Assembly (NCBI GenBank): GCA_000828835.1
Contig: AP014633.1
Coordinates: 1,302,001 to 1,366,000, forward strand
From: Thioploca ingrica
Lineage (GTDB): Bacteria > Pseudomonadota > Gammaproteobacteria > Beggiatoales > Beggiatoaceae
DNA: 64,000 nucleotides
Direction: 5' to 3'
Below the pieces are notes generated by a model. It ran no database searches. It saw only the letters and a list, made by a program, of their open reading frames with translations, and had not been told where the DNA came from. The translations under genes and the position numbers were made by a program. Positions 2,294 to 60,509 of the stretch are shown here, in pieces; position 1 is the stretch's first letter, and every line of letters begins with the position of its first letter.

Positions 2294-2905
2294 TTATTTC
2301 CTCGTGGTAAGATTTATCGTACATTGAGCAAATATTGAATACAAGACACCTAAAATAAAGTCTAATTGAGTTTCAGCATAAACAGAGCTTTCATAAACGT
2401 CATTTTCAGGTGTCAGTTTATAAAATCGCCAAACGATGGCGTTGGTTACGATTCCAAAAACTTCAAATGGTTTAAAAATCTTGTTAAGCCACTGACAAGC
2501 TTGCATCTCTACTAAACACTGTGCTAATCCCTGTTCAAAATTATCTTTTTTAGCTTCAACTACACATAAAAATGGCGATTGATAAACTGTTCCTTGCGGA
2601 GCAACTAGATAATCTATTGTTCCAGTCAAAGCGTCGGTTTGTAAAGAAGCATCTTTCCATATTTTCAATTCTTTGAAATCGTCAATCGCTTCGAGTAATA
2701 GAGCATCAATCAGTAGAGATTTTGCTGCTTCTGACAGTGACAGGTCAAAATGTGACTTCAACTTAACAATCGTTTGCTGGTAATATGCCGATGGAGCGCG
2801 TGGAATTATCTCCAGGTGCCATTCTTTTAATTGGTTAACTCCTACGACTTTCAAAGATTCCTGTAAACTGAAGCCAGAAAACCGTTTTTTACGTGGTTTT
2901 TTCAT
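2294..2905 (-). CDS. Small PD-(D/E)XK-like protein with basic N-terminus
   Basis: This 203-residue protein begins with a very basic stretch (MKKPRKKRFSGFSLQ) behind a strong ribosome site (AGGAGG). The core is GTIDYLVAP (D98) and FLCVVEAKKDN (E117-A-K119). It lies between the two closely related proteins at 1641 and 2993 but is only distantly similar to them. Its interest is historical: fragments of its first 15 codons recur at 3805-3852, 5376-5506 and 6321-6348, and the 5376 copy also carries its middle and last codons, so this gene or a near relative was copied several times in the island and decayed. Confidence 0.65.
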   Translation of the reverse strand: MKKPRKKRFSGFSLQESLKVVGVNQLKEWHLEIIPRAPSAYYQQTIVKLKSHFDLSLSEAAKSLLIDALLLEAIDDFKELKIWKDASLQTDALTGTIDYLVAPQGTVYQSPFLCVVEAKKDNFEQGLAQCLVEMQACQWLNKIFKPFEVFGIVTNAIVWRFYKLTPENDVYESSVYAETQLDFILGVLYSIFAQCTINLTTRK

Positions 2906-2992
2906 TATTACTTCCTCCTATCCGGTTCATCTCACACCCCGTTAGCAATTTGAAGAAAGAAGTGTGCGGAGGAGGCTATATTCTACATTCGC

Positions 2993-3598
2993 TTACTTTA
3001 ATTGTAACTCACAGTGTACCAACACATTCTCCAAAGCCCCACACAAAGTTGTTAGTGCCTGTAGTGTGTAAGAAGTTCGGTTTTTAGTAAACTGGTTAGC
3101 GGTCAATTTTCCAAATTCCCACTTGTCACCATTAGATACCACCCCAAACACGGTAAGTTCCGCAGGTTGACTCAATTTTTGGGCCGCTATCAATTCCACC
3201 AGACATTGACCCCAACCTTCTTGGAAATTGTCTTTCTTAGCTTCTACAACCAGCAGATAGGGTTGGTCGCAAACGATTTTTCCCAGCGGGGACTTTTTGG
3301 TAATCATATAATCTGGTGTACCTGATAAATCTTCATCATATTGCAAAGGTTCATGGCTCCACAACATGAGCTTGTCACGGTGTGGTTTCCACGATTCTTT
3401 TAAAATAGGGTAAATAAGATTTTCACACACCGCAGCTTCAGAATTATTCGTGACTAACTCGACTAAAACAAATTCCAGCTCAGTTTGTAAATACTCACTG
3501 GGCGTGACCTCGGCCGACACGATATAATCTTCCTCTTGATAACAAAGTTGAAACTTTTTCAGGACGTTTCCCAGACTTTTGTAAGAACTGAATGGCAT
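2993..3598 (-). CDS. Small PD-(D/E)XK-like protein, paralogue B
   Basis: The 201-residue paralogue of the 1641-2252 product has the same core: TPDYMITKKSP (P95-D96) and YLLVVEAKKDN (E119-A-K121). It starts at ATG with AGAGGA 8 bases upstream. Divergence between the two copies is spread over the whole length while the core stays conserved, which argues that both have been kept under selection after an old duplication rather than being a fresh copy. The neighbour on the 5' side is a short MITE (3663-3744). Nuclease function is inferred from the fold signature. Confidence 0.65.
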   Translation of the reverse strand: MPFSSYKSLGNVLKKFQLCYQEEDYIVSAEVTPSEYLQTELEFVLVELVTNNSEAAVCENLIYPILKESWKPHRDKLMLWSHEPLQYDEDLSGTPDYMITKKSPLGKIVCDQPYLLVVEAKKDNFQEGWGQCLVELIAAQKLSQPAELTVFGVVSNGDKWEFGKLTANQFTKNRTSYTLQALTTLCGALENVLVHCELQLK

Positions 3599-3662
3599 AT
3601 TAGCAAATCCTCTGTTCTCTTGTGTTTAACGAAGCAGATTCGACCCCCCCCACGTACACCTC

Positions 3663-3744
3663 AATGCTATTATTAAGTTAAGCGATTTACGGCTCTCCCT
3701 CTCCCAGAGTGAGAGTGGAGTTTTTCTTAACTTAATGGCAGTGC
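3663..3744. mobile_element. MITE, IS4-like ends, with 11-bp target duplication
   Basis: The 82-bp element has inverted ends. The right end reads, on the opposite strand, CACTGCCATTAAGTTAAG; the left end is the same motif starting CAATG with three extra bases. It is flanked by a perfect 11-bp direct repeat, CACGTACACCT, at 3652-3662 and 3745-3755. There is no coding capacity. The tips resemble those of IS4-family elements, which make target duplications of about 10-13 bp, so a non-autonomous IS4-type element is the best reading. A second copy is at 55984-56051. Confidence 0.75.
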
Positions 3745-3804
3745 ACGTACACCTACGTTGATGATCTTTGCATAAACCGCTATAAGAATACATACTTCAG
3801 AGTA

Positions 3805-3905
3805 GAGAGATAAACTAAAACCAGAAAACCGTTTTCTACGTGGTTTGTTCATAGAAGTTAACTTTTTCCAAACACAAATTCGTTGCATCAGGTGTATCTT
3901 GGAAT
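3805..3905 (-). pseudogene. Composite spacer relic 1 (small-ORF tail plus start of a PD-(D/E)XK gene)
   Basis: Reading the minus strand, the first part (3870-3889) matches the end of the small ORF at 4439-4573 (the CNEFVF segment). About 20 bases on comes ATG at 3852 with MNKPRRKRFSGFSL, the start of the gene type at 2294-2905. After that the similarity stops and the frame runs into the MITE. This is a decayed junction, not a gene. The same junction occurs at 5524-5376 and 6384-6321. Confidence 0.6.
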
Positions 3906-3929
3906 AAAAACATTGCTTGGTTTTGACTT

Positions 3930-4442
3930 TTAGTTGAAAATTTTTTCAAGGGATAACTGAATATCTAATACTTCATCAATCACCTCGTTATTCCCACTTA
4001 ATAAATCAAAGTTTTTAAACTTATTTATAGAGGAGTAGACGGTTATAACCTCAATTTCAGGTGCAACCAACCAACAGGATTTGACACCCAACGCAAAATA
4101 CACTTTGAATTTTTCTTTAATCTCATACATCCCCTGGGTAGGAGCTAATATTTCAATTGCCAACAGCGGCATCTCAGACATCTTCAAAATATCAGTGGGT
4201 CTACTCAATCCACGTCGAGTCGGCGGGTATAGGCAAATATCAGGCTTGAGTTCTCCTCTAGCCTTAAGGTTGAATTGACTTAAGTCAATGGCGCTTATAT
4301 CCAAGCTTAATTCCGTCACCAGCGTAAATTTATCGTCCGGTAACAACCGATTCAAACGACTTTGAACTAGTGCATGATTCCATGAACCCATATCAAAACT
4401 TTCTTTATTTTCAACTGATTCTGTTGCAAGAAGGTCAATCAT
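3930..4442 (-). CDS. Uma2 family (DUF820) PD-(D/E)XK endonuclease-like protein
   Basis: The 170-residue protein carries the Uma2 signature: ELKPDICLY (P67-D68) followed by LLAIEILAPTQG (E97), then the helix KFKVYFALGVKSCWLV with the typical W-V strand. Uma2 proteins are abundant in cyanobacteria and large sulfur bacteria and are predicted restriction-endonuclease-like enzymes of unknown role. Its ATG overlaps the stop codon of a short upstream reading frame (ATGA at 4439-4442), suggesting coupled translation. It is about 20-40 residues shorter than many Uma2 proteins at the N-terminus but the core is complete. Confidence 0.8.
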   Translation of the reverse strand: MIDLLATESVENKESFDMGSWNHALVQSRLNRLLPDDKFTLVTELSLDISAIDLSQFNLKARGELKPDICLYPPTRRGLSRPTDILKMSEMPLLAIEILAPTQGMYEIKEKFKVYFALGVKSCWLVAPEIEVITVYSSINKFKNFDLLSGNNEVIDEVLDIQLSLEKIFN

Positions 4443-4573
4443 AGCGTTGTCTTATTAAACACAAATTCGTTGCATCCGGTGGGCACTTGAGCAGGTATCG
4501 CTTTTACTATCACAAATCCCGGTTTGTTTAACAATCGTTCTATTTCCTCAATGTCCGTTTCGGCTTGAGCCAC
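4439..4573 (-). CDS. Small ORF coupled to Uma2 gene (44 residues), possible DUF5678-like C-terminal part
   Basis: The frame opens at GTG 4573 and ends in an ATGA overlap with the Uma2 gene. The product contains EEIERLLNKPGFVIVKAIPAQ and ends VPTGCNEFVFNKTTL. A near-identical copy without a start codon follows vapC at 5524-5640 and shorter tails occur at 3870-3889 and 6369-6384. The alternation of helix and VPTGCNEFVF strand recalls the end of DUF5678-like proteins, but this is tentative. It may be a truncated gene kept as a leader, or the remnant left of an insertion. There is no strong ribosome site before the GTG. Confidence 0.4.
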   Translation of the reverse strand: MAQAETDIEEIERLLNKPGFVIVKAIPAQVPTGCNEFVFNKTTL

Positions 4574-4638
4574 TTTACTCTGCGGTTAAGGCACTTTTGG
4601 AGAATTCTAGGAAATAAACCGTCACAGAGAATTAGAAA

Positions 4639-4935
4639 TCATTGAATTCGCTCGTGCTCCTTAAGAATCAGTTCCCTAAATGAGTCGCTTAATAGTGACC
4701 AATCTGCAATATCTACGCGGATAGGAAGATCAGACTCACTAAATGCCTCTTTTATCATACCACAATATGCTTCATCCAAAGGCTGTTCGGTTATGAACAC
4801 TAAATCTAAATCAGAAAAAGGTTTTAAGCCACGTTGATGCACTCTGGAACCAAATGCCCATACTTCACAATTGGGCACCCAGTCGCGCAGGATACTTCGC
4901 ACTTGGTTTAAATATTCAACTTCTAACACTATCAT
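4639..4935 (-). CDS. MNT-type nucleotidyltransferase, antitoxin of a HEPN/MNT pair
   Basis: The 98-residue protein has the minimal nucleotidyltransferase pattern: WAFGSRVHQRG (G29-S30), PFSDLDLVF (D42 and D44) and a third acidic position at D75 in IRVDIADW. Such proteins in HEPN/MNT modules neutralise the HEPN toxin, in characterised cases by adding AMP to it. The start overlaps the HEPN stop by 4 bases (ATGA), the usual arrangement. All catalytic positions are present, so an active antitoxin is likely. Confidence 0.85.
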   Translation of the reverse strand: MIVLEVEYLNQVRSILRDWVPNCEVWAFGSRVHQRGLKPFSDLDLVFITEQPLDEAYCGMIKEAFSESDLPIRVDIADWSLLSDSFRELILKEHERIQ

Positions 4936-5330
4936 ACGTTTCTCTGTTTCAAATTTTGCAGCAATGTCTTTGCATCTTGAATGAAAACTAATGCTGTTTT
5001 ATAAACTTGCTTGGCTTTGGCTTCGTTATAAGCATGGGAAGTCATATTGCGTTGTCGCCGATATTCAAACCAAGATTCGGGATTATTTATCAAACCACGC
5101 TCAGCCGATTCCCGTATCATTTCCTTAAAACCCATTGCATCAATGCTAACGGGTGTAGGTGAATCAATTTCAAGTTGGCGTTTAAGCATTTTCCAGGATA
5201 ATTCATAACTATACTCAAATCTTTGGATCACACTGTCTCGCACTTCTTCATCCATTGGTTCTCTTTGCGAACGCACAATAGCTTGCTCTAAACTAGATAA
5301 GGCTTTTTCTAAAGAGGTCAATTCAAGCAT
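4932..5330 (-). CDS. HEPN-domain toxin (HI0074-like nucleotidyltransferase-substrate protein)
   Basis: The 132-residue, mostly helical protein matches the HI0074/HEPN family that pairs with MNT enzymes. The catalytic R-x4-6-H motif of HEPN RNases is present as R94-NMTS-H99 within the segment YRRQRNMTSHAYNEA. It is the first gene of a two-gene operon overlapping the MNT gene by 4 bases. Toxicity as an RNase is inferred from the motif; members of this family were first described as substrate-binding subunits for the transferase. Confidence 0.82.
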   Translation of the reverse strand: MLELTSLEKALSSLEQAIVRSQREPMDEEVRDSVIQRFEYSYELSWKMLKRQLEIDSPTPVSIDAMGFKEMIRESAERGLINNPESWFEYRRQRNMTSHAYNEAKAKQVYKTALVFIQDAKTLLQNLKQRNV

Positions 5331-5375
5331 GATAATTAGTTTTATTTAATGAATATTGATGTAGTCGTTTTTGAC

Positions 5376-5506
5376 AATTGACCATACACTGAGAAAATAT
5401 TGAATACAAAATACCTATACGCATAAAAATGGCGACTGGTAAATTTTTCCTTCAAAGCTTTCTGTAAACTAAAGCTAGCAAACCGCCTTTTACGTTATTT
5501 GTTCAT
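5376..5506 (-). pseudogene. Internally deleted relic of a PD-(D/E)XK gene (2294-2905 type)
   Basis: From ATG 5506 the minus strand reads M-N-K, a stop, then RKRRFASFSLQKAL, matching the N-terminus of the 2294-2905 protein. It jumps to a stretch matching the IYQSPFLC region and then to the last part (GVLYSIFAQC) of that gene, all within 131 bases. Two large internal deletions and stop codons show it is dead. It ends 45 bases upstream of the HEPN toxin gene. Confidence 0.7.
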
Positions 5507-5523
5507 CACTAAAGCTAGTTTTT

Positions 5524-5640
5524 CCTAAACACAAACTCATTGCATCCGGTGGGCACTTGAGCAGGAATTGCTTTTATCATCACAAATCCTTGTTTGTTTA
5601 ACAAACGTTCTATTTCCTCAACAGAAGCATATTCATCCTG
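5524..5640 (-). pseudogene. Composite spacer relic 2: second copy of the small ORF, start codon lost
   Basis: Directly after the vapC stop, the minus strand continues in frame as ASVEEIERLLNKQGFVMI, ending VPTGCNEFVFRKN and a stop. This is a close copy of the small ORF at 4439-4573, with no ATG, GTG or TTG start left. It is followed 18 bases later by the PD-(D/E)XK relic at 5376-5506, so the whole 5376-5640 stretch is one copy of the recurring spacer. Confidence 0.6.
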
Positions 5641-6033
5641 TTAGTTTAATAAAATGAGAGGAAAAGAAGTTGCAATAGCTTCAAAATCCCTATCATTGTG
5701 TAATAATGAACAATTATTGACCAGTGCAACCGCCGCAATCATACAATCTACTGATTTGCGAATGGTGATGCCTTTTTTTCTCAGTTCACGATAAATCTCG
5801 GCGGCTGTGACAAATACCGTCTGCGACATTTCTAAAAAATTTAGTGTATTGAGTTTATAAAGTGTTTCCGTGTATTGACGGTTATCACGAATGCCTTGCA
5901 ATATTTCAGTCAAAATCACACCACATAAACTCACCTTTTCTCTTTCACCAAGCAAAAATTCTAATTGTGTAACTTGTGGTGTTTCCTTACCATGTAGGAA
6001 ATCAATCCAGACGCTGGTATCAACTAAAATCAT
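5641..6033 (-). CDS. vapC: PIN-domain ribonuclease toxin VapC
   Basis: The 130-residue protein is a typical VapC: MILVDTSVWIDF (D5), an acidic residue in ILTEILQG (E43), SVDCMIAA (D97) and HNDRDF (D114 or D116) form the PIN metal site. VapC toxins cut tRNA or rRNA. It overlaps the upstream antitoxin by 14 bases. All active-site positions are intact, so the toxin should be functional. Decayed spacer copies border the pair on both sides (5376-5640 and 6321-6384). Confidence 0.9.
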   Translation of the reverse strand: MILVDTSVWIDFLHGKETPQVTQLEFLLGEREKVSLCGVILTEILQGIRDNRQYTETLYKLNTLNFLEMSQTVFVTAAEIYRELRKKGITIRKSVDCMIAAVALVNNCSLLHNDRDFEAIATSFPLILLN

Positions 6034-6226
6034 CGTAAATCCTTCCAGTTCGCCATGCCGTTAAATCTCCTTCCCAACGGATTTTTCCTTTCAGTTGAAG
6101 AAGGCTCTTTTGTTGTTCACGACGAACTAATTCGGTCAGTGCCAAGCTAACCACTTCTTCGGCAGTTTGAAGACCAGTTGTTTTTAGTGCCAATTCAATT
6201 AGAGTTTTCTCGATAGCTAATTCCAT
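6020..6226 (-). CDS. vapB: VapB-like antitoxin
   Basis: The 68-residue protein has a helix-rich N-terminus (KTGLQTAEEVVSLALTELVR type pattern) like VapB antitoxins whose ribbon-helix-helix fold binds the operator. A C-terminal tail (WEGDLTAWR) would wrap the toxin. It is translated just before vapC with a 14-base overlap, the standard order. It probably represses its own operon. The call rests on size, order and pattern rather than on a diagnostic motif. Confidence 0.8.
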   Translation of the reverse strand: MELAIEKTLIELALKTTGLQTAEEVVSLALTELVRREQQKSLLQLKGKIRWEGDLTAWRTGRIYDDFS

Positions 6227-6320
6227 GGTGAATCCTTCACAGAGTGAATGTTAGACTGACAGAATTAATCTAGCTCAGCAAGTTGCAATGAAGCGTTTAG
6301 AATAGTAACAATAATACTTT

Positions 6321-6384
6321 AAATCCGTTTTTTACGTTGTTTGTTCATCACTGAAGTTAGTTTTTTCTAAACACAAATAATTCG
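6321..6384 (-). pseudogene. Composite spacer relic 3
   Basis: The minus strand shows the same joint as the other relics: a stretch like the NEFVFRKN tail of the small ORF, about 20 bases, then ATG at 6348 with MNKQRKKRI and a stop. It is the most eroded copy. It lies upstream of vapBC, so that module is bracketed by two copies of the spacer in the same orientation. Confidence 0.55.
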
Positions 6385-10724: not shown

Positions 10725-11162
10725 TTAATTTTCTGGGTAAAAATTTTTAGCCAACAATTGTTCTTGGGAATAGGGGCAACTTGGCGGAAAAGTTGACTGG
10801 GAAAAACCGGTATCATCGCCGGCTAACTCTACCGCATCAAAATAAGCGTCGGCTAAGGCTATAGTGAGATAAGGTTTTAAACCGGGTTTTTTTCTCACTA
10901 AGCTATTAATCTGTATACGTTGTTCATTAATTGAACCTCGCCAACTACTACTGCGGTGATCCGGTTGATATTCCCATTTTAATAAGTGCCCAATTAAGAC
11001 GATAAAGCGACTGGTTAACTCCTGTTTGTTATTCCCCATATCCTCCAATTCCTCAGCGAGGTGTTCGACATCAAGCTCGGCAAACCGACCTTGGCGTAGT
11101 AGTTGGGCATTATGTAAGGCCCACGTGTATAAATCTGTTTCGTAATCAATGAGTTTACTCAT
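10725..11162 (-). CDS. DUF29 family protein, copy 2
   Basis: The 145-residue protein shows the DUF29 signature: IDYETDLYTWALHNAQLLRQ, then FAELDVEHLAEELEDMG and an LIGHLLKWEYQ helix. DUF29 proteins are common in cyanobacteria and large sulfur bacteria and have no known function. I start it at the MSK codon (11162), which has AAGGGAA just upstream; a longer frame from 11183 has no ribosome site. It is a tandem duplicate of the gene at 11228-11692: the first 40 residues and the 45-bp leader are almost identical, while the rest has diverged. Confidence 0.8.
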   Translation of the reverse strand: MSKLIDYETDLYTWALHNAQLLRQGRFAELDVEHLAEELEDMGNNKQELTSRFIVLIGHLLKWEYQPDHRSSSWRGSINEQRIQINSLVRKKPGLKPYLTIALADAYFDAVELAGDDTGFSQSTFPPSCPYSQEQLLAKNFYPEN

Positions 11163-11205
11163 ATTTTTCCCTTGTGCAACCATGAAATAATTAACGGGTG
11201 AACCC
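11161..11205. repeat. Duplicated leader of the DUF29 genes
   Basis: These 45 bases recur at 11691-11735 with one mismatch. They cover the ribosome site and the first bases of each DUF29 gene, so they mark the 5' edge of the tandem duplication. In the second location the leader also supplies the stop codon of the GT2 gene. Confidence 0.85.
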
Positions 11206-11227
11206 AGACACAGCTATGCTCTTAGTC

Positions 11228-11692
11228 CTATTGATTTTCTGGGTAAAAATCTTCGTCTAGTATTTGTTCTATGGAATAGAGGCATTTTTGAGGAAAATCC
11301 GTTGTGGGAATTTTGGTTTCCTTAGCGGCTAATTTCACCGCATGAGGATAAGCATTAGCTACAGCTTCAAACAAGAATGGCTTTAGGCTAGGATTGGTTG
11401 CTAACTTATCATTCAGTTGTACACGTTGTTCGGTAATCGTACTACGCCAACTACCCCCTTCCCAAGGCCATATTTCAGCAATCTGTTTAAATTGGTACTG
11501 CCACTTCAATAAATGGGCAATTAAAATTTTAAGGCGACTGACTATTTCCTGGCGGTTATTTTTTCCCATATCCTCCAATTCCTCGGCGAGGTGTTCGACA
11601 TCAAGTTCGGCAAACCGACCTTGGCGTAGTAATTGGGCATTATGTAAAGCCCACGTGTATAAATCGGTTTCGTAATCAATAGTTTTACTCAT
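11228..11692 (-). CDS. DUF29 family protein, copy 1
   Basis: The 154-residue DUF29 protein (IDYETDLYTWALHNAQLLRQ; AELDVEHLAEELEDMG; HLLKWQYQ) is longer in its middle than the tandem copy (insert around IAEIWPWEGGSW). The frame stays open upstream to 11791, through a G-rich repeat, but that extension is low complexity and lacks a ribosome site; the MSK start at 11692 is preceded by AAGGGAA. It lies at the 3' end of the GT2 gene, whose last codons overlap its leader. Function unknown. Confidence 0.8.
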   Translation of the reverse strand: MSKTIDYETDLYTWALHNAQLLRQGRFAELDVEHLAEELEDMGKNNRQEIVSRLKILIAHLLKWQYQFKQIAEIWPWEGGSWRSTITEQRVQLNDKLATNPSLKPFLFEAVANAYPHAVKLAAKETKIPTTDFPQKCLYSIEQILDEDFYPENQ

Positions 11693-11720
11693 ATTCTTCC
11701 CTTGTGCAACCATGAAATAA

Positions 11721-12662
11721 TTAACGGGTGAACCCCACCCCACCCCACCCCACCCCACCCCAGCGGCGAGGATTTCGAGATGGGGTTGCAATCCTACGAA
11801 TTAAGTCAGCAGATAAACCAATAGCGGCTATAATAAACGCAGCGGCAAAACTAAAAGCGGCATTCGTTCCCCAAAAGAGAGTGAATTTAGGGTTATCAGC
11901 AACCAGAAAACCGAGAAAAGCCATCAAGCTGATACTCAGCATCATATTGACCAGTAATAAAAACAGCTTGAATGGATTGTAATAAAGAATATTTTCAATA
12001 ATGATTTGTAGGCTTCTGAGACTATCTCGCCAATAGCGTATATGAGATTTTCCGATGCGTTTATAGTAATTTATAGGAATATACTTGACAAAATAACCAT
12101 TCAGGAGTGCCGCTAACGTAATTGTAGTGGTAAAACTAAACCCGTTACTAATGGTATGTAGGTATTTAAGTACAATTTCCTTTTTAAAAATTCTCAACCC
12201 ACTGTTAATATCATCTATTTTTTGGCCGGTGGCATATTCACTAAGCCATAAGAAAACCCATCGTGCTGGCATTTTTAGAAAAGTACCTCGATATTCTGGT
12301 CCAGTACGTGCGCCAACTACCATATCATAACCCTCTTCAACAATCACTTTATATAATTCAGGTAATTTATCATGCGGATAAGTACCATCTGCATCTGTAA
12401 TCGCTATCAGGTCATAACTGGCTTGTAAAATTCCCTCTTTAAGTGAGTGTCCATAACCACCCGGTTGAGGGTGGTGGATAACATGCACAATACCTTGTTT
12501 TTCAAAGGCATCAACGATTTTTCCGGTGTGATCTGTTGAACCGTCATTGATCACGATTATTTCATGTTCGATCTGGGCAACCTTTAGATTAGAAATAATG
12601 GATTCAATGGTTTGCCCAATAGCTGATTCTTCGTTGCGTGCGGGGATGATAACTGAAAGCAT
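11721..12662 (-). CDS. GT2 glycosyltransferase (polyprenyl-phosphate sugar synthase-like)
   Basis: The protein starts MLSVIIPARNEES, the first strand of a GT2 fold, and has ITDADGTYP as the metal-binding DxD region, followed by VVGARTGPEYRG. Two membrane helices come near the C-terminus (residues about 235-290), as in dolichyl/undecaprenyl-phosphate mannose or glucose synthases. I prefer the ATG at 12662 (AGG, 6 bases upstream) over the longer frame from 12725, whose first 21 codons resemble the end of the neighbouring methyltransferase. The C-terminal tail comes from the CCCCA repeat and the DUF29 leader, so the native end has probably been replaced. It likely supplies the lipid-linked sugar for the GT-C proteins nearby. 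Confidence 0.85.
   Translation of the reverse strand: MLSVIIPARNEESAIGQTIESIISNLKVAQIEHEIIVINDGSTDHTGKIVDAFEKQGIVHVIHHPQPGGYGHSLKEGILQASYDLIAITDADGTYPHDKLPELYKVIVEEGYDMVVGARTGPEYRGTFLKMPARWVFLWLSEYATGQKIDDINSGLRIFKKEIVLKYLHTISNGFSFTTTITLAALLNGYFVKYIPINYYKRIGKSHIRYWRDSLRSLQIIIENILYYNPFKLFLLLVNMMLSISLMAFLGFLVADNPKFTLFWGTNAAFSFAAAFIIAAIGLSADLIRRIATPSRNPRRWGGVGWGGVGFTR
11733..11762. repeat. (CCCCA)6 pentanucleotide repeat, G-quadruplex candidate
   Basis: Six uninterrupted CCCCA units lie on the plus strand; the minus strand, which is the coding strand here, is six TGGGG units. Four or more G4 runs with one-base loops are a classic quadruplex pattern. The repeat codes for the WGGVGWGGVG tail of the GT2 enzyme. 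Because the unit is 5 bases, gain or loss of one unit would change the frame and the tail. Confidence 0.85.
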
Positions 12663-12705
12663 ACTGCCTAAACTTTGTTTGGTGGCTATAATAATTGGCT
12701 GATTT
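12646..12705. repeat. Junction repeat A, copy at the GT2 start
   Basis: This stretch is similar to 13724-13780. Translated on the minus strand the two read QPIIIATKQ ... SMLSVII and QSVIVMATKKT-stop ... SMLSVI: the last codons of the methyltransferase followed by the first codons of the GT2 enzyme. An 11-base core (GAAAGCATACT) is identical. The two copies bracket the Rpn gene at 12770-13636. Confidence 0.7.
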
Positions 12706-12769
12706 TTCCTGCCGAAGAAAATCAATAATAATCGAGATATCTATTAAAATTCTTCTACGTTCCATGACT

Positions 12770-13636
12770 TCATTTCAACTTGGCAATTTCCTCTACACTC
12801 AGCCCCGTTTTCAAAGCAATTGTTTCCAAGTCTAATATTTCCAATAGGCTTTGAGCAATCTTGAGTTGTTCCCGTTTCCTTCCGGCTTCTATCCCTTGTT
12901 CCATACCTTCTTTTATCCCTTTGTCCCAAGCGGAGATTATTTTGCTTTCCATATCGAGCAACACTTGCATTCGGGTTTCATAAACTTGACGCTCTGCCTC
13001 ATTAAACATGCGATCGACCGCCTCAATGGCTTTGACAATCGTTTTATCGTGAGCTAGTTCGGGTGGTAAATGAGATTTATCCAGTTCATGGGCACGAGAC
13101 AAGAACAGGATCCATCTATCTAAAGCGGTAGCTATTTCATGGTAGGGTTTGTTAAATTTTCTCAGTTCGAGGTAATGTAGTTCAAAAACGTCATGCAATT
13201 TGTCATCTTTACCGGTGCCGATATTGATAATTTTATAGCAATTATGGAAGGCATCGACGTCAGTAATAAAATTGAAATCGAGGATATTGATGCAGAAGGT
13301 TTTTTTCAACTCTTTAAACATCATGCCTTCACTGAGTTGCTCGGTCACTAATTTCGCCCAGTAGTAAATGGAACGTTTATCAAAATTGAGGTCTTCGCCG
13401 ACTTGCATTTCAATATTAAACCAACGACCAGTTTGATCACTGGCTTTAATGTCAAGAATAGACATTTTACCGGCTTGATAATCCGCTAAGTTATATGGAT
13501 TTTTTAATTCCAGTTCCACGATTTGATCTTCATTGGCTAGAATGGCATTGAGCAAGGCTATCAATAAATCCTTATTTTCTTCGCTACCAAACAGTTTTTT
13601 GAAAGCAAAATCGACTTTGGGATTGATTCGGCACAT
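12770..13636 (-). CDS. Rpn family recombination-promoting nuclease
   Basis: The 288-residue Rpn protein opens with NPKVDFAFKKLFGSEENKDLL, has D62 in ILDIKA and E76-M-Q78 in FNIEMQVG as nuclease residues, and ends with the helical LSVEEIAKLK. It resembles the 14-868 protein in plan but is a different subgroup. It stands alone between a methyltransferase and a GT2 gene whose original junction appears on both sides of it, so it looks like an insertion into an operon. Same strand as the host operon; no terminal inverted repeats found. Confidence 0.87.
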   Translation of the reverse strand: MCRINPKVDFAFKKLFGSEENKDLLIALLNAILANEDQIVELELKNPYNLADYQAGKMSILDIKASDQTGRWFNIEMQVGEDLNFDKRSIYYWAKLVTEQLSEGMMFKELKKTFCINILDFNFITDVDAFHNCYKIINIGTGKDDKLHDVFELHYLELRKFNKPYHEIATALDRWILFLSRAHELDKSHLPPELAHDKTIVKAIEAVDRMFNEAERQVYETRMQVLLDMESKIISAWDKGIKEGMEQGIEAGRKREQLKIAQSLLEILDLETIALKTGLSVEEIAKLK

Positions 13637-13723
13637 ATTGATTATTGGGGATAATTATTGAAGTTGAAAAAACAGTTATTAGTTGGTGTAGGTTGGGCTC
13701 AATGAAATCCAACTTAGATTTGG

Positions 13724-13780
13724 GAATGACCGAAAGCATACTAAGTCTTTTTGGTAGCCATAACAATAACAGATTGTCCA
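13724..13780. repeat. Junction repeat A, copy at the methyltransferase end
   Basis: See 12646-12705. Here the first part is the genuine end of the methyltransferase, and the bases after its stop (AGTATGCTTTCGGTCATTCC on the minus strand) are a dead copy of the GT2 start. Confidence 0.7.
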
Positions 13781-14454
13781 ATAAATGGAATTAAGTAATC
13801 AAAATACTTCAAGAAAGGAATCAATTTGTCGTAAAGCTTGATTTGAGAATGAGTACTTTTGGAATTAATGTGACTCTTTGAATATTTATTGACTAGCCAG
13901 CCCCAAAAGCCAATTTTATTAAAATAGTGCATTTTTTCAATAGTAAAATGGTTTTGTAAAAGAATTCTGAACTGGCTTTTGGTGTAACGTCTATAATGTC
14001 CAGCTTGCCTATCATAATTTGAGAATAAAATCTGAAAAGCCGGTGCAAAAATAATGAGCCTACCATTTAAGTTTAATATGTCGTAACAACATTTAATAAA
14101 TGTATCGTCATTTCTTATGTGCTCGATAATGTTAATAGCAATAATAGTGTCAACTTGAAAAGGTAATTTACTGTTGTCTACACCGTCCATTACCACATAA
14201 TCAATATTATTAATTGATTTTAAATGTTCTTTAATAATTTCTATCGCCCTAACATCAATATCTGAAACAATAAGTTTATGAACCAATTTAGCAATTTTTT
14301 TTGAATAAATGCCATGACCGGAACCAATCTCCAATGCTATTCCATTTTTTATAAAATCTTTGAAACTATTGAATACCCAATCATGGTAATGAGTTATTTG
14401 GGTAATCGCATTTGACATCGTTTCACGAGATTTTATCTGACTAGGATTATTCAT
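13741..14454 (-). CDS. Class I SAM-dependent methyltransferase
   Basis: The 237-residue enzyme has motif I LEIGSGHGIYS (residues 41-51), the acidic end of strand 2 (VSDID), VVMDGVDN, and IIAINIIEHIRND as the post-motif strand, all typical of UbiE/methyltransferase-11 proteins. A basic C-terminal region follows. It overlaps the upstream membrane-protein gene by 4 bases (ATGA), so the two are translationally coupled. Substrate is unknown; within a glycosylation cluster, methylation of a lipid-linked sugar or of quinone-like lipid are both possible. Confidence 0.8.
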   Translation of the reverse strand: MNNPSQIKSRETMSNAITQITHYHDWVFNSFKDFIKNGIALEIGSGHGIYSKKIAKLVHKLIVSDIDVRAIEIIKEHLKSINNIDYVVMDGVDNSKLPFQVDTIIAINIIEHIRNDDTFIKCCYDILNLNGRLIIFAPAFQILFSNYDRQAGHYRRYTKSQFRILLQNHFTIEKMHYFNKIGFWGWLVNKYSKSHINSKSTHSQIKLYDKLIPFLKYFDYLIPFIGQSVIVMATKKT

Positions 14455-15851
14455 TTAAATAATTTAAAAAAAACTGATATGACGATATAACGTAAAAAAA
14501 GCACTTGAAAAACCAATTGTAAAGTATCTGTATAAAACGAGTAACGTAGTAAAATAGGTTCAAAAAGTGCGATAAGCCCATAATTTGCAAAATGAATAGT
14601 TGTAATCAATGGAAAAATAAAAAATAGCGTCTTACGGGTTCTCAAAAAAATAAAAGTCAAGATGACAGCTTGTATGATTAGAAAACTGGTGTAAATGATA
14701 CCCAGTAGGTTGGCATAGTGGTAATAGTAGCCACTCCAGTAATAACTCATCCAACTGACTATAGTACCCAGGTAAAGTTTAATAAATTCAAAATAGTTCG
14801 CTTTCATTAACTTCAATGCAATTGAAGTTTTAAGCTGATCTGACTCGATATAACTTTGCTCCGCTGGATTGCAAAGATAGCAAACAGCAGCTACCTTCCA
14901 GTAACATGCTCGCCACGCATCCATATAATGTGTCCAATAGATATTTTCTAGGGTAACCGCTTCACTTTTTTTAATAGGTACATAAGGCATAATATCATTT
15001 ATATATTGTGAAAGACTGGCTTCTTTTTCTCTTATTTTTATAGCAGCATAAAGCCATTTCAAAAAATCAATTTGTTTTTTATCGTGAAATAATTGTATGT
15101 CCAGTGAAGGATTAGAAAGATACAGTTGAGCAACAAGAAGTTGAGTGCCAATCAAGGGAGGAATTGATGAAAATACGCCATGAAAAAAGTAATTATAGGT
15201 TCTTTGATAAAGTGAAGCACTCAATAAAAATACTGTAAACATCAATACTAGATTGATTGTTTTATGGATATTTTTCGATTTAAACCAATAGTAAAAAATC
15301 AATATTACATCAATGATATATAAAAATATAAACTGAGGTCTAACAGTTACTATCAATATAGAAATAAAAAGAATATAAATTAAACCTTTAAAATTGAGTT
15401 TAAATATCGTTTTTGTCACAATACCGATATAAAGAAGAAACAGACTATAGGTTAGCGAGTCGGTTCCAATCTGGTTAACTAGGTTTTGCTTTATATAAGT
15501 AAAAGGTGAATAAACTGGGGAGATAAGAATTAAATAGATCAGAAAAAAAGTAATTTTTCCTAATTTAAAATATTTTTTTAGTACTAACGATAAAAATAAA
15601 ACTGACGTGAAGGAGATAATGATTTGAAAATACACTACGCATAACAAGTAGTCTTCTGTCCCAAAAAGAAACTCAAAAAAATCTAACCATAACGGGTATG
15701 AAGGAGTACGAATAATGTGATTGATAATATAGCTTTGGCTATCACCAAACGTCATCACTCCTTGTTGAAATAAAAAAATAATGATTACCACATTGAGTGC
15801 AATAAAAATTGCATCTATTATTGTAATTTTACTCAAATTTATAGAGTTCAT
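14451..15851 (-). CDS. Polytopic membrane protein, paralogue of 17124-18581
   Basis: The 466-residue protein has about 10 membrane segments. Two motifs are shared with the 17124-18581 protein: GDSQSYI (residues 36-42) and RTPSYPLWLDFFE (48-60), plus a TVRPQFIFLYII helix and QRTYNYFFHG. The acidic residue in the first loop and the RP-motif suggest a GT-C-like glycosyltransferase, but I cannot name a family. Its first codons also occur as a dead copy at 17107-17146, at the end of its paralogue. Confidence 0.5.
   Translation of the reverse strand: MNSINLSKITIIDAIFIALNVVIIIFLFQQGVMTFGDSQSYIINHIIRTPSYPLWLDFFEFLFGTEDYLLCVVYFQIIISFTSVLFLSLVLKKYFKLGKITFFLIYLILISPVYSPFTYIKQNLVNQIGTDSLTYSLFLLYIGIVTKTIFKLNFKGLIYILFISILIVTVRPQFIFLYIIDVILIFYYWFKSKNIHKTINLVLMFTVFLLSASLYQRTYNYFFHGVFSSIPPLIGTQLLVAQLYLSNPSLDIQLFHDKKQIDFLKWLYAAIKIREKEASLSQYINDIMPYVPIKKSEAVTLENIYWTHYMDAWRACYWKVAAVCYLCNPAEQSYIESDQLKTSIALKLMKANYFEFIKLYLGTIVSWMSYYWSGYYYHYANLLGIIYTSFLIIQAVILTFIFLRTRKTLFFIFPLITTIHFANYGLIALFEPILLRYSFYTDTLQLVFQVLFLRYIVISVFFKLFK
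15825..15847. repeat. Junction repeat B, copy at the start of the 14451-15851 gene
   Basis: These 23 bases are identical to 17120-17142, and similarity extends to about 38 bases. They hold codons 2-9 of the membrane-protein gene. The two copies bracket the Rpn gene at 15918-16994. Confidence 0.85.
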
Positions 15852-15917: not shown

Positions 15918-16994
15918 TTAAGGAATATCGGTAAAAACTTCCTCAATCGTTATTGCGGTCAATAACCGTTTGGCACAATGTAATAAAGTTTCAGCATCAA
16001 GCGCCTGAATTTGTTCTTCTATAGCCAAGGAAAGTGAGCCAAATTTAGCTTGGAGTTGCAACTTAAAAATCAGCCGCTCTCCTTCTAATTTTCCCTGTTG
16101 AAGTCCCTGTTGAAGTCCCTGTTGAAGCCCTTGCTGAAGTCCCTGTTGAAGTCCCTGTTGAAGTCCCTGTTGAAGTCCCTGTTGAAGTCCCTGTTGAAGT
16201 CCTTGCTGAAGTCCTTGCTGAAGTCCTTGAGTCTCCGCATCGGCATACCACTGTTGTACGGTTTCTGCCAACATATTACGCATCTCCTGTAATTCATGGA
16301 TTTGGGGAAATTGTACCTGAGGTAATCGCTTGGGTAGTATTACTCGCTGTAACCAAGTGATAAAATCTCGGCGTAGAGAGTCTTGTTTGGGTGTTTGTAA
16401 CCATTTAATAAGATTGGTTAAAATCGATTGGATATCGGTTACGGTCTGACTTTTTTCTAAACGGAAGAGCGCAGCGACCAAATTTTGGAGCGGTGCTAAC
16501 TCCGCTTCACTCAAGGCGCCTTCGTCTAAGAGCAGGTACTCCAGTTGAGGTCGATACCTTTCTAAACCACCTGGCACGACTGAAATTAAGTCACGGATAT
16601 TACGGGCTGAATGCCAACGAGGCTGACCATTGTACAAGACCAAAGGTAAAACCGGTGGTAGCTGATCTTGCGCCGTCAACTGGCGGTGTTTGATCAAATC
16701 TTGGTATAACAGTCCTAAGTAGGTCATAATCCGTACCGCCATGAACGGATCGACTGTCGATTGAAACTCGATTAGGAGGTAAACATACAGCCATTCTCCT
16801 GACCAACGAACTCGCCAGATCAGGTCATCTTCACGACTCCGTAAATCATCGCTGATGAAACTGCCGCTGACTTTTTCTAGGCTAGCAAAATCTAACTCCT
16901 CAACCCAGGCTTCGTGGACAAATCCACGCAGCAAGTCTTTTACCATAGTCGCATGGGAAAAGAGTAATTTGTAACTGTGATCGTGTTCATACAT
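15918..16994 (-). CDS. Rpn family nuclease with a (QGLQ)n repeat
   Basis: The 358-residue Rpn/YhgA-like protein has HDHSYKLLFSHATMVKDLLRGF at the N-terminus (residues 4-25), acidic D56/D57 in SREDDLIWRV and E76-F-Q78 in YLLIEFQST as nuclease residues. Between the catalytic domain and a C-terminal helical domain lies a run of 11 four-residue QGLQ units. The repeat is exact at DNA level (12-bp unit, 16093-16224), which keeps the frame when units are gained or lost. The gene interrupts a pair of paralogous membrane-protein genes and is bracketed by direct repeats. Confidence 0.87.
   Translation of the reverse strand: MYEHDHSYKLLFSHATMVKDLLRGFVHEAWVEELDFASLEKVSGSFISDDLRSREDDLIWRVRWSGEWLYVYLLIEFQSTVDPFMAVRIMTYLGLLYQDLIKHRQLTAQDQLPPVLPLVLYNGQPRWHSARNIRDLISVVPGGLERYRPQLEYLLLDEGALSEAELAPLQNLVAALFRLEKSQTVTDIQSILTNLIKWLQTPKQDSLRRDFITWLQRVILPKRLPQVQFPQIHELQEMRNMLAETVQQWYADAETQGLQQGLQQGLQQGLQQGLQQGLQQGLQQGLQQGLQQGLQQGLQQGKLEGERLIFKLQLQAKFGSLSLAIEEQIQALDAETLLHCAKRLLTAITIEEVFTDIP
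16093..16224. repeat. 11 tandem 12-bp units coding QGLQ
   Basis: Eleven back-to-back 12-bp units (consensus CCCTGTTGAAGT on the plus strand) with only a few substitutions. All three frames stay open on both strands, which produces several spurious reading frames here. The near-identity of units points to recent slippage or conversion. Confidence 0.95.
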
Positions 16995-17119
16995 GTTGAA
17001 AGTGTAGCACAGCAGTATAGGGTAATGGTATCTATGTGGCGATTTTTCGCTCGTGGAATGACGCTAACGCATCGGTATGGCATTTCCAACGAAAATCAAG
17101 AAATAGTATTTATTACTGC

Positions 17120-17142
17120 AATTTTACTCAAATTTATAGAGT
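17120..17142. repeat. Junction repeat B, copy at the end of the 17124-18581 gene
   Basis: Identical over 23 bases to 15825-15847. In this copy the start ATG has become ATA, and the stop codon of the upstream membrane-protein gene lies inside the repeat, so the two genes probably once overlapped at this point. Confidence 0.85.
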
Positions 17143-18581
17143 CTATCACTTTTAAACAAAGAAACTAATTTATTCTTGAATATAAATAAGTTGTTAGAAA
17201 TAAACCTAATAATGTAATAAAAAATAATGAGTTGAAAAACCAGTTGCAGAATATCGGTGTAAAAAGAATACCGGATCATAACCACTTCAACTAACATAAC
17301 TAATCCATAGTTCATAAAATGAACGATATTAATGCAGAGAAAAGCAAAAAAAAGAACTTGACGGGTTTTAAGATAAAAATAAGTAAAGAAACCTAACTGT
17401 ATCAGTAAAAAAATAGCGTAATAACGCCCCATGTCTATTATGAAACTCACACCTGAAGCCATATAATCAGCTATTGAAGAAGTGTAAAATTCAGTAAATT
17501 TAGAGTAATTAGCTAACATTAACTTTAATGCAATGGATGTAGTTAGCTGGTCTAACTGTGGTAATAATTCCGGATCGGAGTATATCTTAAAAAAATTACC
17601 TTCGACATGGTGCATAATAGCGAAAGTTTGAGCGACAGTGTTATGACATATTTTATTATATACCTCTCCATAGTTTTGTACGGTTGGTGGATTATTAGCC
17701 CCATAATTCAACCGCTCAGCTTCCATTTTTGGGTATATTTTTTCCAAAAAAGCGATTTCTTCTTTATTTTGAAAGAAGCGTATATAGGAAGAATCCGATA
17801 GATACAGTTGGGGAGTAAGAAGTTGGACTCCTGTAAACGATAACCCTGAAAAAGAATCGTAAAGAATATAATGATATGTTCTTTGATATATTGAAGCACC
17901 TAACATAAATAACATTAACAAAACACCTGCAATAGCTGATTTTTTAATATTTTTAATTAAAAATAAATAATGCCCAATGAACAGTACATTAATTAGATAT
18001 AGAAATATAAACTGCGGTCTTACTGTTGCTGTTAATGCAGAGAAGAAAAAAAGATATATTAAACCGGTTAATTTTGGCTTAAAAATATTAGCTATCATAA
18101 TACTCATAGTTATGAGAAATAGACTATAGGCTAATGGTTCTGTTGCAATCCCATTAGCTATGTACTGTGCGCCATAACCGAACTGAATTAAAGGAAAAAT
18201 ATTACTGATGGAAAAGGAGAAGGGAAAAATAGGAAAAAGAAAAAGCAAATAAGTGATATAGAAAATAATCCATCCTAGTTTAAAATAATTCTTAATAGTC
18301 AATGAAATAATTGAAACTGCGATGAAACATATCATAATCTGAAAAATAACTACTTTAGATAAATAATTAGCACCAAAAATAGTCTCAAAAAGATCAAGTA
18401 ACAACGGGTAAGTTGGGGAGCGGACAGGTATATTCTGGATATAGCCTTGACTATCTGGATAAATGATAACTTCCTTATTAATTAAATTAGACACCATAAT
18501 AATATTCACTGCAATAAAAAAAGCCTGCATTATTATTGTGTCTGTTAGATTATTTAGGTGGCTTAAATTTTTATAATTCAT
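17124..18581 (-). CDS. Polytopic membrane protein, paralogue of 14451-15851
   Basis: About 485 residues with roughly 10-11 membrane segments. Shared motifs with its paralogue are PDSQGYI (residues 42-48), RSPTYPLLLDLFE (54-66), TVRPQFIFLYLI and QRTYHYILYD. I start it at the ATG at 18581; a TTG three codons earlier is possible. It heads the glycosylation cluster. Function is probably the same class as its paralogue (GT-C-like), with different specificity. The last seven codons (RLYKFE) come from the sequence that also forms the start of the downstream gene. Confidence 0.5.
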   Translation of the reverse strand: MNYKNLSHLNNLTDTIIMQAFFIAVNIIMVSNLINKEVIIYPDSQGYIQNIPVRSPTYPLLLDLFETIFGANYLSKVVIFQIMICFIAVSIISLTIKNYFKLGWIIFYITYLLFLFPIFPFSFSISNIFPLIQFGYGAQYIANGIATEPLAYSLFLITMSIMIANIFKPKLTGLIYLFFFSALTATVRPQFIFLYLINVLFIGHYLFLIKNIKKSAIAGVLLMLFMLGASIYQRTYHYILYDSFSGLSFTGVQLLTPQLYLSDSSYIRFFQNKEEIAFLEKIYPKMEAERLNYGANNPPTVQNYGEVYNKICHNTVAQTFAIMHHVEGNFFKIYSDPELLPQLDQLTTSIALKLMLANYSKFTEFYTSSIADYMASGVSFIIDMGRYYAIFLLIQLGFFTYFYLKTRQVLFFAFLCINIVHFMNYGLVMLVEVVMIRYSFYTDILQLVFQLIIFYYIIRFISNNLFIFKNKLVSLFKSDRLYKFE

Positions 18582-18792
18582 AATTCTCAATTGTTATTAG
18601 TAAATTTTGCTTTCACCCTAAAAATTTGAGTTTATGTTGTTACCCACTAATAAATGGTTGTGAAAAGGGGATGTGAAACCAAAAGTAAAACCACGGAACA
18701 CCAAAAACATCAATATTGTTAAGTATAAAATAAGCCACTATAAAAATATAGGTACCTGAACCTATTAGGTAATTGACGATACTATTCTTTTT

Positions 18793-58517: not shown

Positions 58518-59159
58518 ATGCAATTAACATTCAATCAAATCGTTATTCCACCGGGACGGAATTTATTATTGAAAGATATTGACTGGTCAACCTTGGAAGA
58601 ATTATTAGAGGAACTCGGTGAAACTCGTGCAGCAAGACTTTCCTACAGTCAAGGAATGTTAGAAATTATGGTGCCATTAGCAGAACATGAAGCGGGTAAG
58701 GAAATTATCGGCGATTTAGTTAAGGTGATCTTGGAAGAATGGGGAATCGATTTTTGGGCTTTGGGTTCCACTACTTTTAAAAACTCCGCAATGGCACAAG
58801 CGATTGAAGCAGATGCGTGTTTTTATATTCAACATGAAGCTATGGTTCGTGGTAAAAAGCGGATCGATTTAACCAACGATCCGCCACCCGATTTAGCGAT
58901 TGAAATTGATATCAGTTCCCGAACCCGCTTTGATAACTACGAAAAATTAGGGGTGCCGGAACTGTGGCGCTATGATGGGGAGCATCTAGAAATCAATGTC
59001 TTACAAAACGGTCACTATGTTACCTCAGCAACCAGTATTCACTTTCCCCAATTTCCCCTAGTGGAAGCGATTCCTCAATATATGAAACAAAGTCAAAGCG
59101 TGGGTCGAAATGCGACGATGAAAGCCTTTCGCGCCTGGGTGAGAAGTTATTTGAGCTAA
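58518..59159 (+). CDS. Uma2 family endonuclease-like protein, tandem copy 1
   Basis: The 213-residue Uma2 protein has PPPDLAIEIDISSRT (P124-D125 and E129-I-D131; an E-x-D rather than E-x-K) followed by NYEKLGVPELWRYDGEHLEINVLQNG. It has an N-terminal helical region (LEELLEELGETRAAR). It is one of three tandem copies that are nearly identical in their second half but diverge in the middle, a sign of duplication with gene conversion. Confidence 0.85.
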   Translation: MQLTFNQIVIPPGRNLLLKDIDWSTLEELLEELGETRAARLSYSQGMLEIMVPLAEHEAGKEIIGDLVKVILEEWGIDFWALGSTTFKNSAMAQAIEADACFYIQHEAMVRGKKRIDLTNDPPPDLAIEIDISSRTRFDNYEKLGVPELWRYDGEHLEINVLQNGHYVTSATSIHFPQFPLVEAIPQYMKQSQSVGRNATMKAFRAWVRSYLS

Positions 59160-59192
59160 AATGATTAACCTCAACCGTTGGTAAAAATCACT
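59160..59192. repeat. 33-bp spacer between tandem Uma2 genes, repeated at 59835-59867
   Basis: The bases between the stop of copy 1 and the start of copy 2 are identical to those between copies 2 and 3. With the matching gene ends they define a repeat unit of 675 bp. Confidence 0.9.
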
Positions 59193-59834
59193 ATGCAATT
59201 AACATTCAATCAAATCGTTATTCCACCGGGACGGAATTTATTATTAAAAAACATTGACTGGTCGATGTTGGAAGAATTATTAGCAGAATTAGGAGAAACC
59301 CGTGCCGCACGAATTTCTTACAGTCGAGGGATGTTAGAAGTTATGGTTCCATTAGCCGAGCATGAAAGTGACAAGGAAATCATTGGTAATTTAGTAGAAA
59401 CTCTTTTGGAAGAACTTGATATAGAGTTTTGGGCGCTCGGTTCCACTACCTTTAAGAATGAACTGATGGCAAGAGCCGTTGAACCAGATAAATGCCTCTA
59501 TATTCAACATGAAGCGGTGATTCGTGGTAAAAAGCGGCTCGATTTAACCGTCGATCCACCACCCGATTTGGCAATTGAAATTGATATCAGTTCCCGAACC
59601 CAATTTGATAACTACGAAAAATTAGGCGTACCAGAACTGTGGCGCTATGATGGAGAGCATCTAGAAATCAATGTGTTACAAAATGGTCGCTATGTAATTT
59701 CCGCTACCAGTATTCACTTTCCCCAGTTTCCTCTCGTGGAAGCGATTCCTCAATACGTGAAACAAAGTCAAAGCGTGGGTCGAAATGCGACGATGAAAGC
59801 CTTTCGCGCCTGGGTGAGAAGTTATTTGAGCTAA
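59193..59834 (+). CDS. Uma2 family endonuclease-like protein, tandem copy 2
   Basis: 213 residues from the MQLTFNQ start, which matches copies 1 and 3; an earlier frame start at 59178 lies in the repeated spacer. The core is PPPDLAIEIDISSRTQ. Compared with copy 1 it differs mainly in the segment around EHESDKEIIGNLVETLLEELDIEFW. Confidence 0.85.
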   Translation: MQLTFNQIVIPPGRNLLLKNIDWSMLEELLAELGETRAARISYSRGMLEVMVPLAEHESDKEIIGNLVETLLEELDIEFWALGSTTFKNELMARAVEPDKCLYIQHEAVIRGKKRLDLTVDPPPDLAIEIDISSRTQFDNYEKLGVPELWRYDGEHLEINVLQNGRYVISATSIHFPQFPLVEAIPQYVKQSQSVGRNATMKAFRAWVRSYLS

Positions 59835-59867
59835 AATGATTAACCTCAACCGTTGGTAAAAATCACT

Positions 59868-60509
59868 ATGCAATTAACATTCAATCAAATCGTTATTCCA
59901 CCAGGCCGCAATTTATTATTAAAAGACATTGATTGGTCAACCTTGGAAGAATTATTAGCAGAATTAGGAGAAACCCGTGCCGCACGAATTTCTTACAGTC
60001 GAGGGATGTTAGAAGTTATGGTTCCACTAGCCGAGCATGAAGATGGTAAAGAAATTATTGGCGATTTAGTCAAGATTATTTTGGAAGAAATGAATATCGA
60101 GTTTCGCGCTTTGGGTTCAACTACTTTTAAAAACGAGCAAATGGCTCAAGCAATAGAAGCAGATGCGTGTTTTTATATCCAACATGAGGCGGTGGTTCGT
60201 GGTAAAAAGCGGATCGATTTAACCAACGATCCGCCACCCGATTTAGCGATTGAAATTGATATCAGTTCCCGAACCCGCTTTGATAACTACGAAAAATTAG
60301 GGGTGCCGGAACTGTGGCGCTATGATGGAGAAAATCTAGAAATCAATGTGTTACAAAATGGTCGCTATGTGACCTCAGCAATGAGTGTCCACTTTCCCCA
60401 ATGGCCTCTCGTGGAAGCGATTCCTCAATACGTGAAACAAAGTCAAAGCGTGGGTCGAAACGCGATGATGAAAGCTTTTCGCGCTTGGGTGAGAAGCCAG
60501 TTAGGCTAG
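59868..60509 (+). CDS. Uma2 family endonuclease-like protein, tandem copy 3
   Basis: 213 residues from the MQLTFNQ start. The core is PPPDLAIEIDISSRTR as in copy 1. The first 60 residues follow copy 2 (RISYSRGMLEVMVP), the middle follows copy 1 (AQAIEADACFYIQHEA), so it is a mosaic of the other two. It ends 5 bases before the radical SAM gene. Confidence 0.85.
   Translation: MQLTFNQIVIPPGRNLLLKDIDWSTLEELLAELGETRAARISYSRGMLEVMVPLAEHEDGKEIIGDLVKIILEEMNIEFRALGSTTFKNEQMAQAIEADACFYIQHEAVVRGKKRIDLTNDPPPDLAIEIDISSRTRFDNYEKLGVPELWRYDGENLEINVLQNGRYVTSAMSVHFPQWPLVEAIPQYVKQSQSVGRNAMMKAFRAWVRSQLG

Follow-up and report, generated by a model that had tools for sequence, protein, structure and literature searches.

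What kind of event places a single gene inside a tight operon and leaves the border between its two neighbours on both sides of the newcomer? This question is raised by a sugar-processing operon of Thioploca ingrica, contained in the 64,000-nt stretch that we analysed (contig AP014633.1, positions 1,302,001 to 1,366,000; hereafter the window, in whose coordinates features are given). Read along the minus strand, the operon (locus A) consists of an upstream SAM methyltransferase gene, MT-A (14454-13741), an Rpn gene (13636-12770) and a downstream GT2 glycosyltransferase gene (12662-11721). MT-A matches Pfam Methyltransf_12/11/25 above the cut-off and GT2 matches PF00535 (E=9e-32). The Rpn gene (PDDEXK_2) is open over 288 aa and exceeds the cut-offs of both PF12784 (E=6.6e-72) and TIGR01784 (E=1.8e-54), as a member of the Rpn family should. 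Coordinates and profile matches thus agree with the initial annotation, which had placed an Rpn gene at 12770-13636 between a methyltransferase and a GT2 gene. Note that the GT2 reading frame terminates in a GGGTGGGGT repeat immediately before two tandem DUF29 genes (10725-11791), and that its last residues differ from those of its relative in Thioploca sp. SL_4_0 (G001), the sole same-genus relative compared with the genome carrying the window (G000).

The border between MT-A and GT2 is present twice. The left junction copy (13722-13767, minus strand) comprises the last 27 nt of MT-A with its TAG, one T and then ATGCTTTCGGTCATTCCC, 18 nt that form a dead copy of the GT2 start. The right junction copy (12643-12695, minus strand) comprises a worn MT-like end, ATTATTATAGCCACCAAACAAAGTTTAGGCAGT, followed by ATGCTTTCAGTTATCATCCC, the live GT2 start with its ATG at 12662. 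In the local alignment the two copies share 38 of 46 columns (83%), with gaps of 5 and 2 nt, and both are in register with the stop and start codons; the MT end ahead of GT2 accounts for about 25 bp of this, with an identity of 19/25. Since the left copy runs on from MT-A and the right copy runs into GT2, the repeat is target sequence. The dead GT2 start behind the methyltransferase stop and the methyltransferase end ahead of the GT2 start, both noticed in the initial annotation, are therefore there, although the doubled junction measures 46-53 bp and not the 55-60 bp first estimated.

This length is far above that of the duplications made by insertion sequences. Insertion sequences and composite transposons have inverted ends and produce short target duplications. 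Locus A has flanking direct repeats in common with them, but its repeats, and those of the further cases described below, are long and variable. Neither of the two transposon hallmarks was found at locus A: the duplication is about 50 bp, and the inverted pairs close to the insert ends are weak (I9, 12 nt, 92% identity).

Besides Rpn, the insert contains a scrap that the initial annotation had not reported. Between Rpn and the right junction copy (12703-12771, minus strand), a vapB-like end (..MKSWNVEEF*) overlaps a vapC-like start (MERRRILIDISIIIDFLRQEK). Over 35 aa, the scrap shares 51% identity with a G003 PIN protein, whose upstream gene ends in KSWTIEEF; the fragment itself had no match to Pfam PIN, and a plasmid search with it gave zero matches. 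We also considered that the whole stretch before GT2 was vapC and dropped this idea: family homologs match the scrap convincingly only as far as FLRQEK, and for this reason the reading of the stretch before GT2 as a methyltransferase end was kept. Only Rpn and scraps, and no restriction-modification genes, lie between the junction copies.

With moderate confidence, we read locus A as an old insertion with a long target duplication, in which about 50 bp of the border were copied. The initial annotation had proposed an insertion that left tens of target bases, more than a standard transposon leaves, and this is still the best reading of the 46-53 bp copies. Locus A would thus have arisen by insertion together with a copying step.

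The two copies, their codon register and the insert scrap are observed at locus A, and the genus holds other cases of long flanking repeats, one of them at a DUF29 gene with a pristine empty site. In the window, a YhgA-like gene (Transposase_31; 15918-16994, minus strand; PF04754, E=1.6e-31) lies between two 42-bp copies (88%) of the border of two membrane-type genes: the left copy (17101-17142, minus strand) falls where the upstream gene (17124-18590) ends, and the right copy (15806-15847, minus strand) where the downstream gene (14451-15851) starts. A pair of Nucleotidyltransferase and NTase_sub_bind genes (4639-5330, minus strand; PF18765/PF01909 and PF08780) lies, according to the repeat comparison, between 96-bp copies (91%) at 5526-5621 and 4456-4551, both on the minus strand. 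In the surrounding region (2850-6377), PD-DExK, Uma2, NTase-pair and PIN genes form an array, with worn related pieces between genes or at gene starts (2850-2905, 3811-3894, 4456-4551, 5451-5621 and 6322-6377). In G001, an insert of a PD-DExK and a YhgA gene has the border of MT-A and a second methyltransferase gene, MT-B, on both sides (129 columns, 85%).

The pristine empty site belongs to the DUF29 gene at L164 of G000, which lies between 53-bp copies (94%). The corresponding site in G001 (L210/L288, with a 55-bp overlap) has a single repeat copy, continuous with the left flank and matching the right flank for about 100 bp past the copy. The G000 copies differ from each other at 3/53 positions and the G001 copy differs from one of them at 2/53, so that loss of the gene by recombination between the repeats is possible. 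Smaller cases are found at L187 (48 bp), L004 (34 bp) and L087 (36 bp), and across the loci other than A the repeats range from 34 to 135 bp. A blastn of 1.77 Mb with the repeats of five cases (the window YhgA gene, the PD-DExK and YhgA insert of G001, the DUF29 gene, the NTase pair and the Rpn gene at L097 of G001) found no other place of at least 30 bp, apart from orthologous or overlapping places and a shifted 30-bp self-similarity in G001 (L210/L288). In G000, a 213-bp repeat (92%) also flanks a pilin-like gene that lies beside a paralog (L151:3677-4760).

Two of the loci are complex, and they bring in another origin for long repeats. DNA from a related strain, with a different gene at the same place, could recombine by homology at one end while its other end is joined illegitimately, a process known as homology-facilitated illegitimate recombination; or a local tandem duplication could be followed by replacement inside one copy. 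Alleles would then be stacked and the repeat would be their shared flank. Stacking by one-sided homology fits both complex loci. The first is the Rpn gene at L097 of G001, which lies between sharp-edged 135-bp copies (98%). Its insert starts with 77 bp from the end of gshB, the neighbouring gene, and Rpn is enclosed between this piece and a copied end of a PD-DExK gene. Such a patchwork is also expected of repair synthesis or of multi-fragment capture. The 77-bp gshB repeat was rejected as a canonical target copy, as G000 continues like the left copy. The second is the stretch from ribE to atpA in G001 (L379:5440-9965), where a 425-aa ORF, REP-like pieces and a BrnT/CopG-type toxin-antitoxin pair, two contents in tandem between shared flank pieces, have 49-bp copies (94%) outside; G000 has one copy. 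This locus was downgraded as a clean empty site, since G000 retains the first codons of the toxin, which makes the case the product of a deletion or of some more complicated rearrangement. Simple insertion suffices, however, for the DUF29 gene, for the insert between MT-A and MT-B of G001 and for locus A, and for locus A we regard stacking as possible but rather unlikely.

Next, the age of the event and the existence of an empty site at locus A were addressed in G001. There, MT-A and GT2 are on one contig and Rpn adjoins GT2, as it does in G000, and this indicates that Rpn arrived beside GT2 before the two genomes split. Identity of the window to G001 at the DNA level is 88% for Rpn and 81% for GT2; the 83% identity of the junction copies is close to both values, as an event older than the split would predict. 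The MT-A relative is 72% identical over residues 42-236 and the GT2 relative 82% identical, each with one internal stop. The vapBC-like scrap is visible in G001 by eye only, a search with 40 aa of it having given no match there. Downstream of MT-A, G001 has a frameshifted PD-DExK gene, then a YhgA gene and finally MT-B, the left neighbour of Rpn; inspection by eye found no GT2 remnant after MT-B. Since MT-A thus leads to MT-B, and since the stretch corresponding to the MT end before GT2 is largely missing, the ancestral border of MT-A and GT2 is not seen in G001. In other genera, none of three methyltransferase homologs (L019-L021) has GT2 directly after it. Synteny between the two genomes (L289-L308 against L269-L288) runs in blocks of about 1-10 kb, many of which end near the accessory gene used as anchor.

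The second methyltransferase that follows MT-A and a DNA insert in G001 could be taken as the trace of two former methyltransferase-GT2 pairs, the middle of which was lost or replaced by Rpn; the similarity of the junctions would then be paralogy, and GT2 starts and methyltransferase ends are indeed conserved motifs. Against such a collapse of gene pairs, the match spans the border from stop to start, no gene end among 813 sampled equals the MT-A end in its match to the GT2 start, and the same anatomy is found at borders of unrelated genes. We therefore consider paralogy an unlikely source of the two copies.

The initial annotation had suggested that the insertion was linked to Rpn. This part of the claim was not supported, because long local repeats also flank YhgA, PD-DExK and YhgA, DUF29 and NTase genes. 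In its strongest form, Rpn would act as a transposase that moves its own gene by cutting the strands tens of bases apart. Rpn genes are numerous, with 16 matches in G000 and 18 in G001, and, in the parts of the E. coli study considered here, the RpnA endonuclease has little sequence specificity and promotes recombination (PMC5350276). On the other hand, the signature also occurs at inserts with neither Rpn nor YhgA (DUF29, the NTase pair), the repeats differ in length (34-135 bp) and a comparison by eye found no common insert ends. A self-moving Rpn gene is thus improbable. Among 30 Rpn loci of other genera, 11 have a direct repeat whose copies are separated by over 200 bp; tandem genes account for several of these. 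In one such genus, G010 carries a dispersed 77-bp repeat with inverted ends by eye (TATAG..CTATA), present in at least two copies at 9 of 15 Rpn loci (L339-L353). L358 (G019:C22:433130-440709) is a tandem Rpn array whose units are about 92% similar and spaced by 0.9-1.0 kb.

Is the junction match itself real? Aligning the two flanks and judging the significance of the match had been proposed at the outset; with 38/46 identical columns, the match proved rare under nulls built from gene borders. Random pairs of gene ends and starts attained the score in 47/60,000 cases, and in register in 4/60,000. When the MT-A end was compared with sampled gene starts, 1/812 scored as high, and this was MT-B of G001 (score 70), whose start belongs itself to a duplicated junction. 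We also surveyed 413 same-strand gene triples from the window, L073 and 59 other stretches. Seven attained the score: locus A, the window YhgA locus, one at L148, and four from the window that did so because they involve tandem Uma2 or DUF29 genes. Neither junction copy returned the other in a blastn of the 1.77 Mb, partly overlapping, sequence (E<=0.01), and for this reason the match is convincing only by its position. Chance similarity of AT-rich gene borders, for which this blastn result and the 11/5000 dinucleotide shuffles of whole flanks that equal or exceed the score could speak, is very unlikely in view of the register-restricted null and of the separate cases in the same window and genus.

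Long flanking repeats do not accompany every accessory gene. In a control test that misses locus A, 14/89 accessory genes were positive, compared with 17/404 other ORFs, leaving 75/89 accessory genes with no flanking repeat. Six of the 14 were judged by eye to be tandem or neighbouring paralogs, and among the 17 no fewer than 8 belong to the Uma2, PD-DExK, PIN or transposase genes that the window carries. The control left out 11 of 100 loci, where no complete ORF of at least 90 aa covered the match (Rpn, 2/16 and 6/18; DUF29, 1/30 and 2/20; YhgA, 0/16). Repeats at L184, L096, L107, L290, L229 and L015 were rejected as evidence because they are dispersed, and those at L162, L166, L173, L220, L228, L089 and L016 because they were judged to stem from tandem or neighbouring paralogs. 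In the window, three Uma2-like genes in tandem (58518-60509; the first compared with Pfam) have near-identical spacers.

Flanks were also compared between the genomes. Nine comparisons yielded one clean empty site and one locus (L096) with both copies mapping to a single dispersed copy. A further 26 added no case of duplication, most of them matching one flank only; the Rpn-like loci L012 and L013 differ between G000 and G001 by presence or absence, with no duplication. Moreover, 40 query stretches against 21 subject stretches (160,666 aligned bases) gave the DUF29 case at L164, a 1,741-bp insert (L305/L286) that differs between the genomes with no long duplication, and matches among repetitive coding regions.

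Locus A probably joins a pattern that already has a name, insertion with long target duplication, a term from Nobusato et al. 2000 as quoted in citing papers (PMC1643837, PMC3031569, PMC4978471). As far as these citing papers describe it (PMC1643837, PMC3031569), a gene or gene pair, in Helicobacter pylori from restriction-modification systems, was inserted and the target was left as long, variable direct repeats on both sides; such cases were detected by comparing two related genomes, and restriction-modification genes are frequent in them but not required. The Thioploca inserts are likewise flanked by long, variable direct target repeats, but they consist of Rpn, YhgA, DUF29, PD-DExK and NTase genes, and locus A is a case with no empty site, since Rpn also lies next to GT2 in the sole same-genus relative. 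Single genes flanked by direct repeats are also known from Arabidopsis, where, in the portion of the report consulted, the repeats of transposed genes are homologous to the empty target site (22/126 moved genes and 6/102 controls; PMC2869330). Unlike locus A, these are plant genes, and their authors propose that tandem repeats recombine to form circles. Finally, the E. coli Rpn/YhgA nucleases belong to the same protein families as the Rpn of locus A and the window YhgA. In the searched text on them (PMC5350276), the authors suggest a role in gene acquisition, infer that rpnC entered one locus twice, independently, and discuss site choice, with no insertion-site duplication described for E. coli rpn genes. 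Our literature search found no paper that joins Rpn with target duplication, and nothing usable on template switching with gene insertion in bacterial genomes or on target duplication with illegitimate recombination.

How could such an insertion with a long target duplication proceed? We propose that the incoming DNA, which carried rpn together with a partial vapBC-like pair, was inserted at the 1-nt border that separated the methyltransferase from GT2, and that about 50 bp of this border were copied, which would leave both neighbour genes intact. The copying step would most likely be the repair of a broken or stalled border, with DNA synthesis reading the border twice, and the stray gene may have been captured or copied in between during this repair. 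Either template switching or the filling of a break with widely staggered ends would fit as the route. The variable repeat length, the scraps of other genes that the inserts contain and, at L097, the locally derived piece point to repair, not to a fixed transposase reaction. Tight operon borders may retain mainly the duplicating products, because only these leave both neighbours intact.

A bolder and quite doubtful extension is that Rpn/YhgA nucleases themselves make the breaks whose repair captures stray genes, each leaving a target copy of 35-135 bp, and that a nuclease-rich genome thereby keeps taking defence-type genes. If true, insertion with long target duplication would have agents beyond restriction-modification systems, namely the Rpn families. 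The entry of single genes into tight operons with no transposon is poorly explained, and long copied borders are a readable trace of it. If one genus has such borders beside its Rpn, YhgA, DUF29 and NTase genes, the pattern described for restriction-modification genes would be extended and tied to genes often viewed as selfish or defensive, and the genus would offer genomes rich enough in cases for separating repair models.
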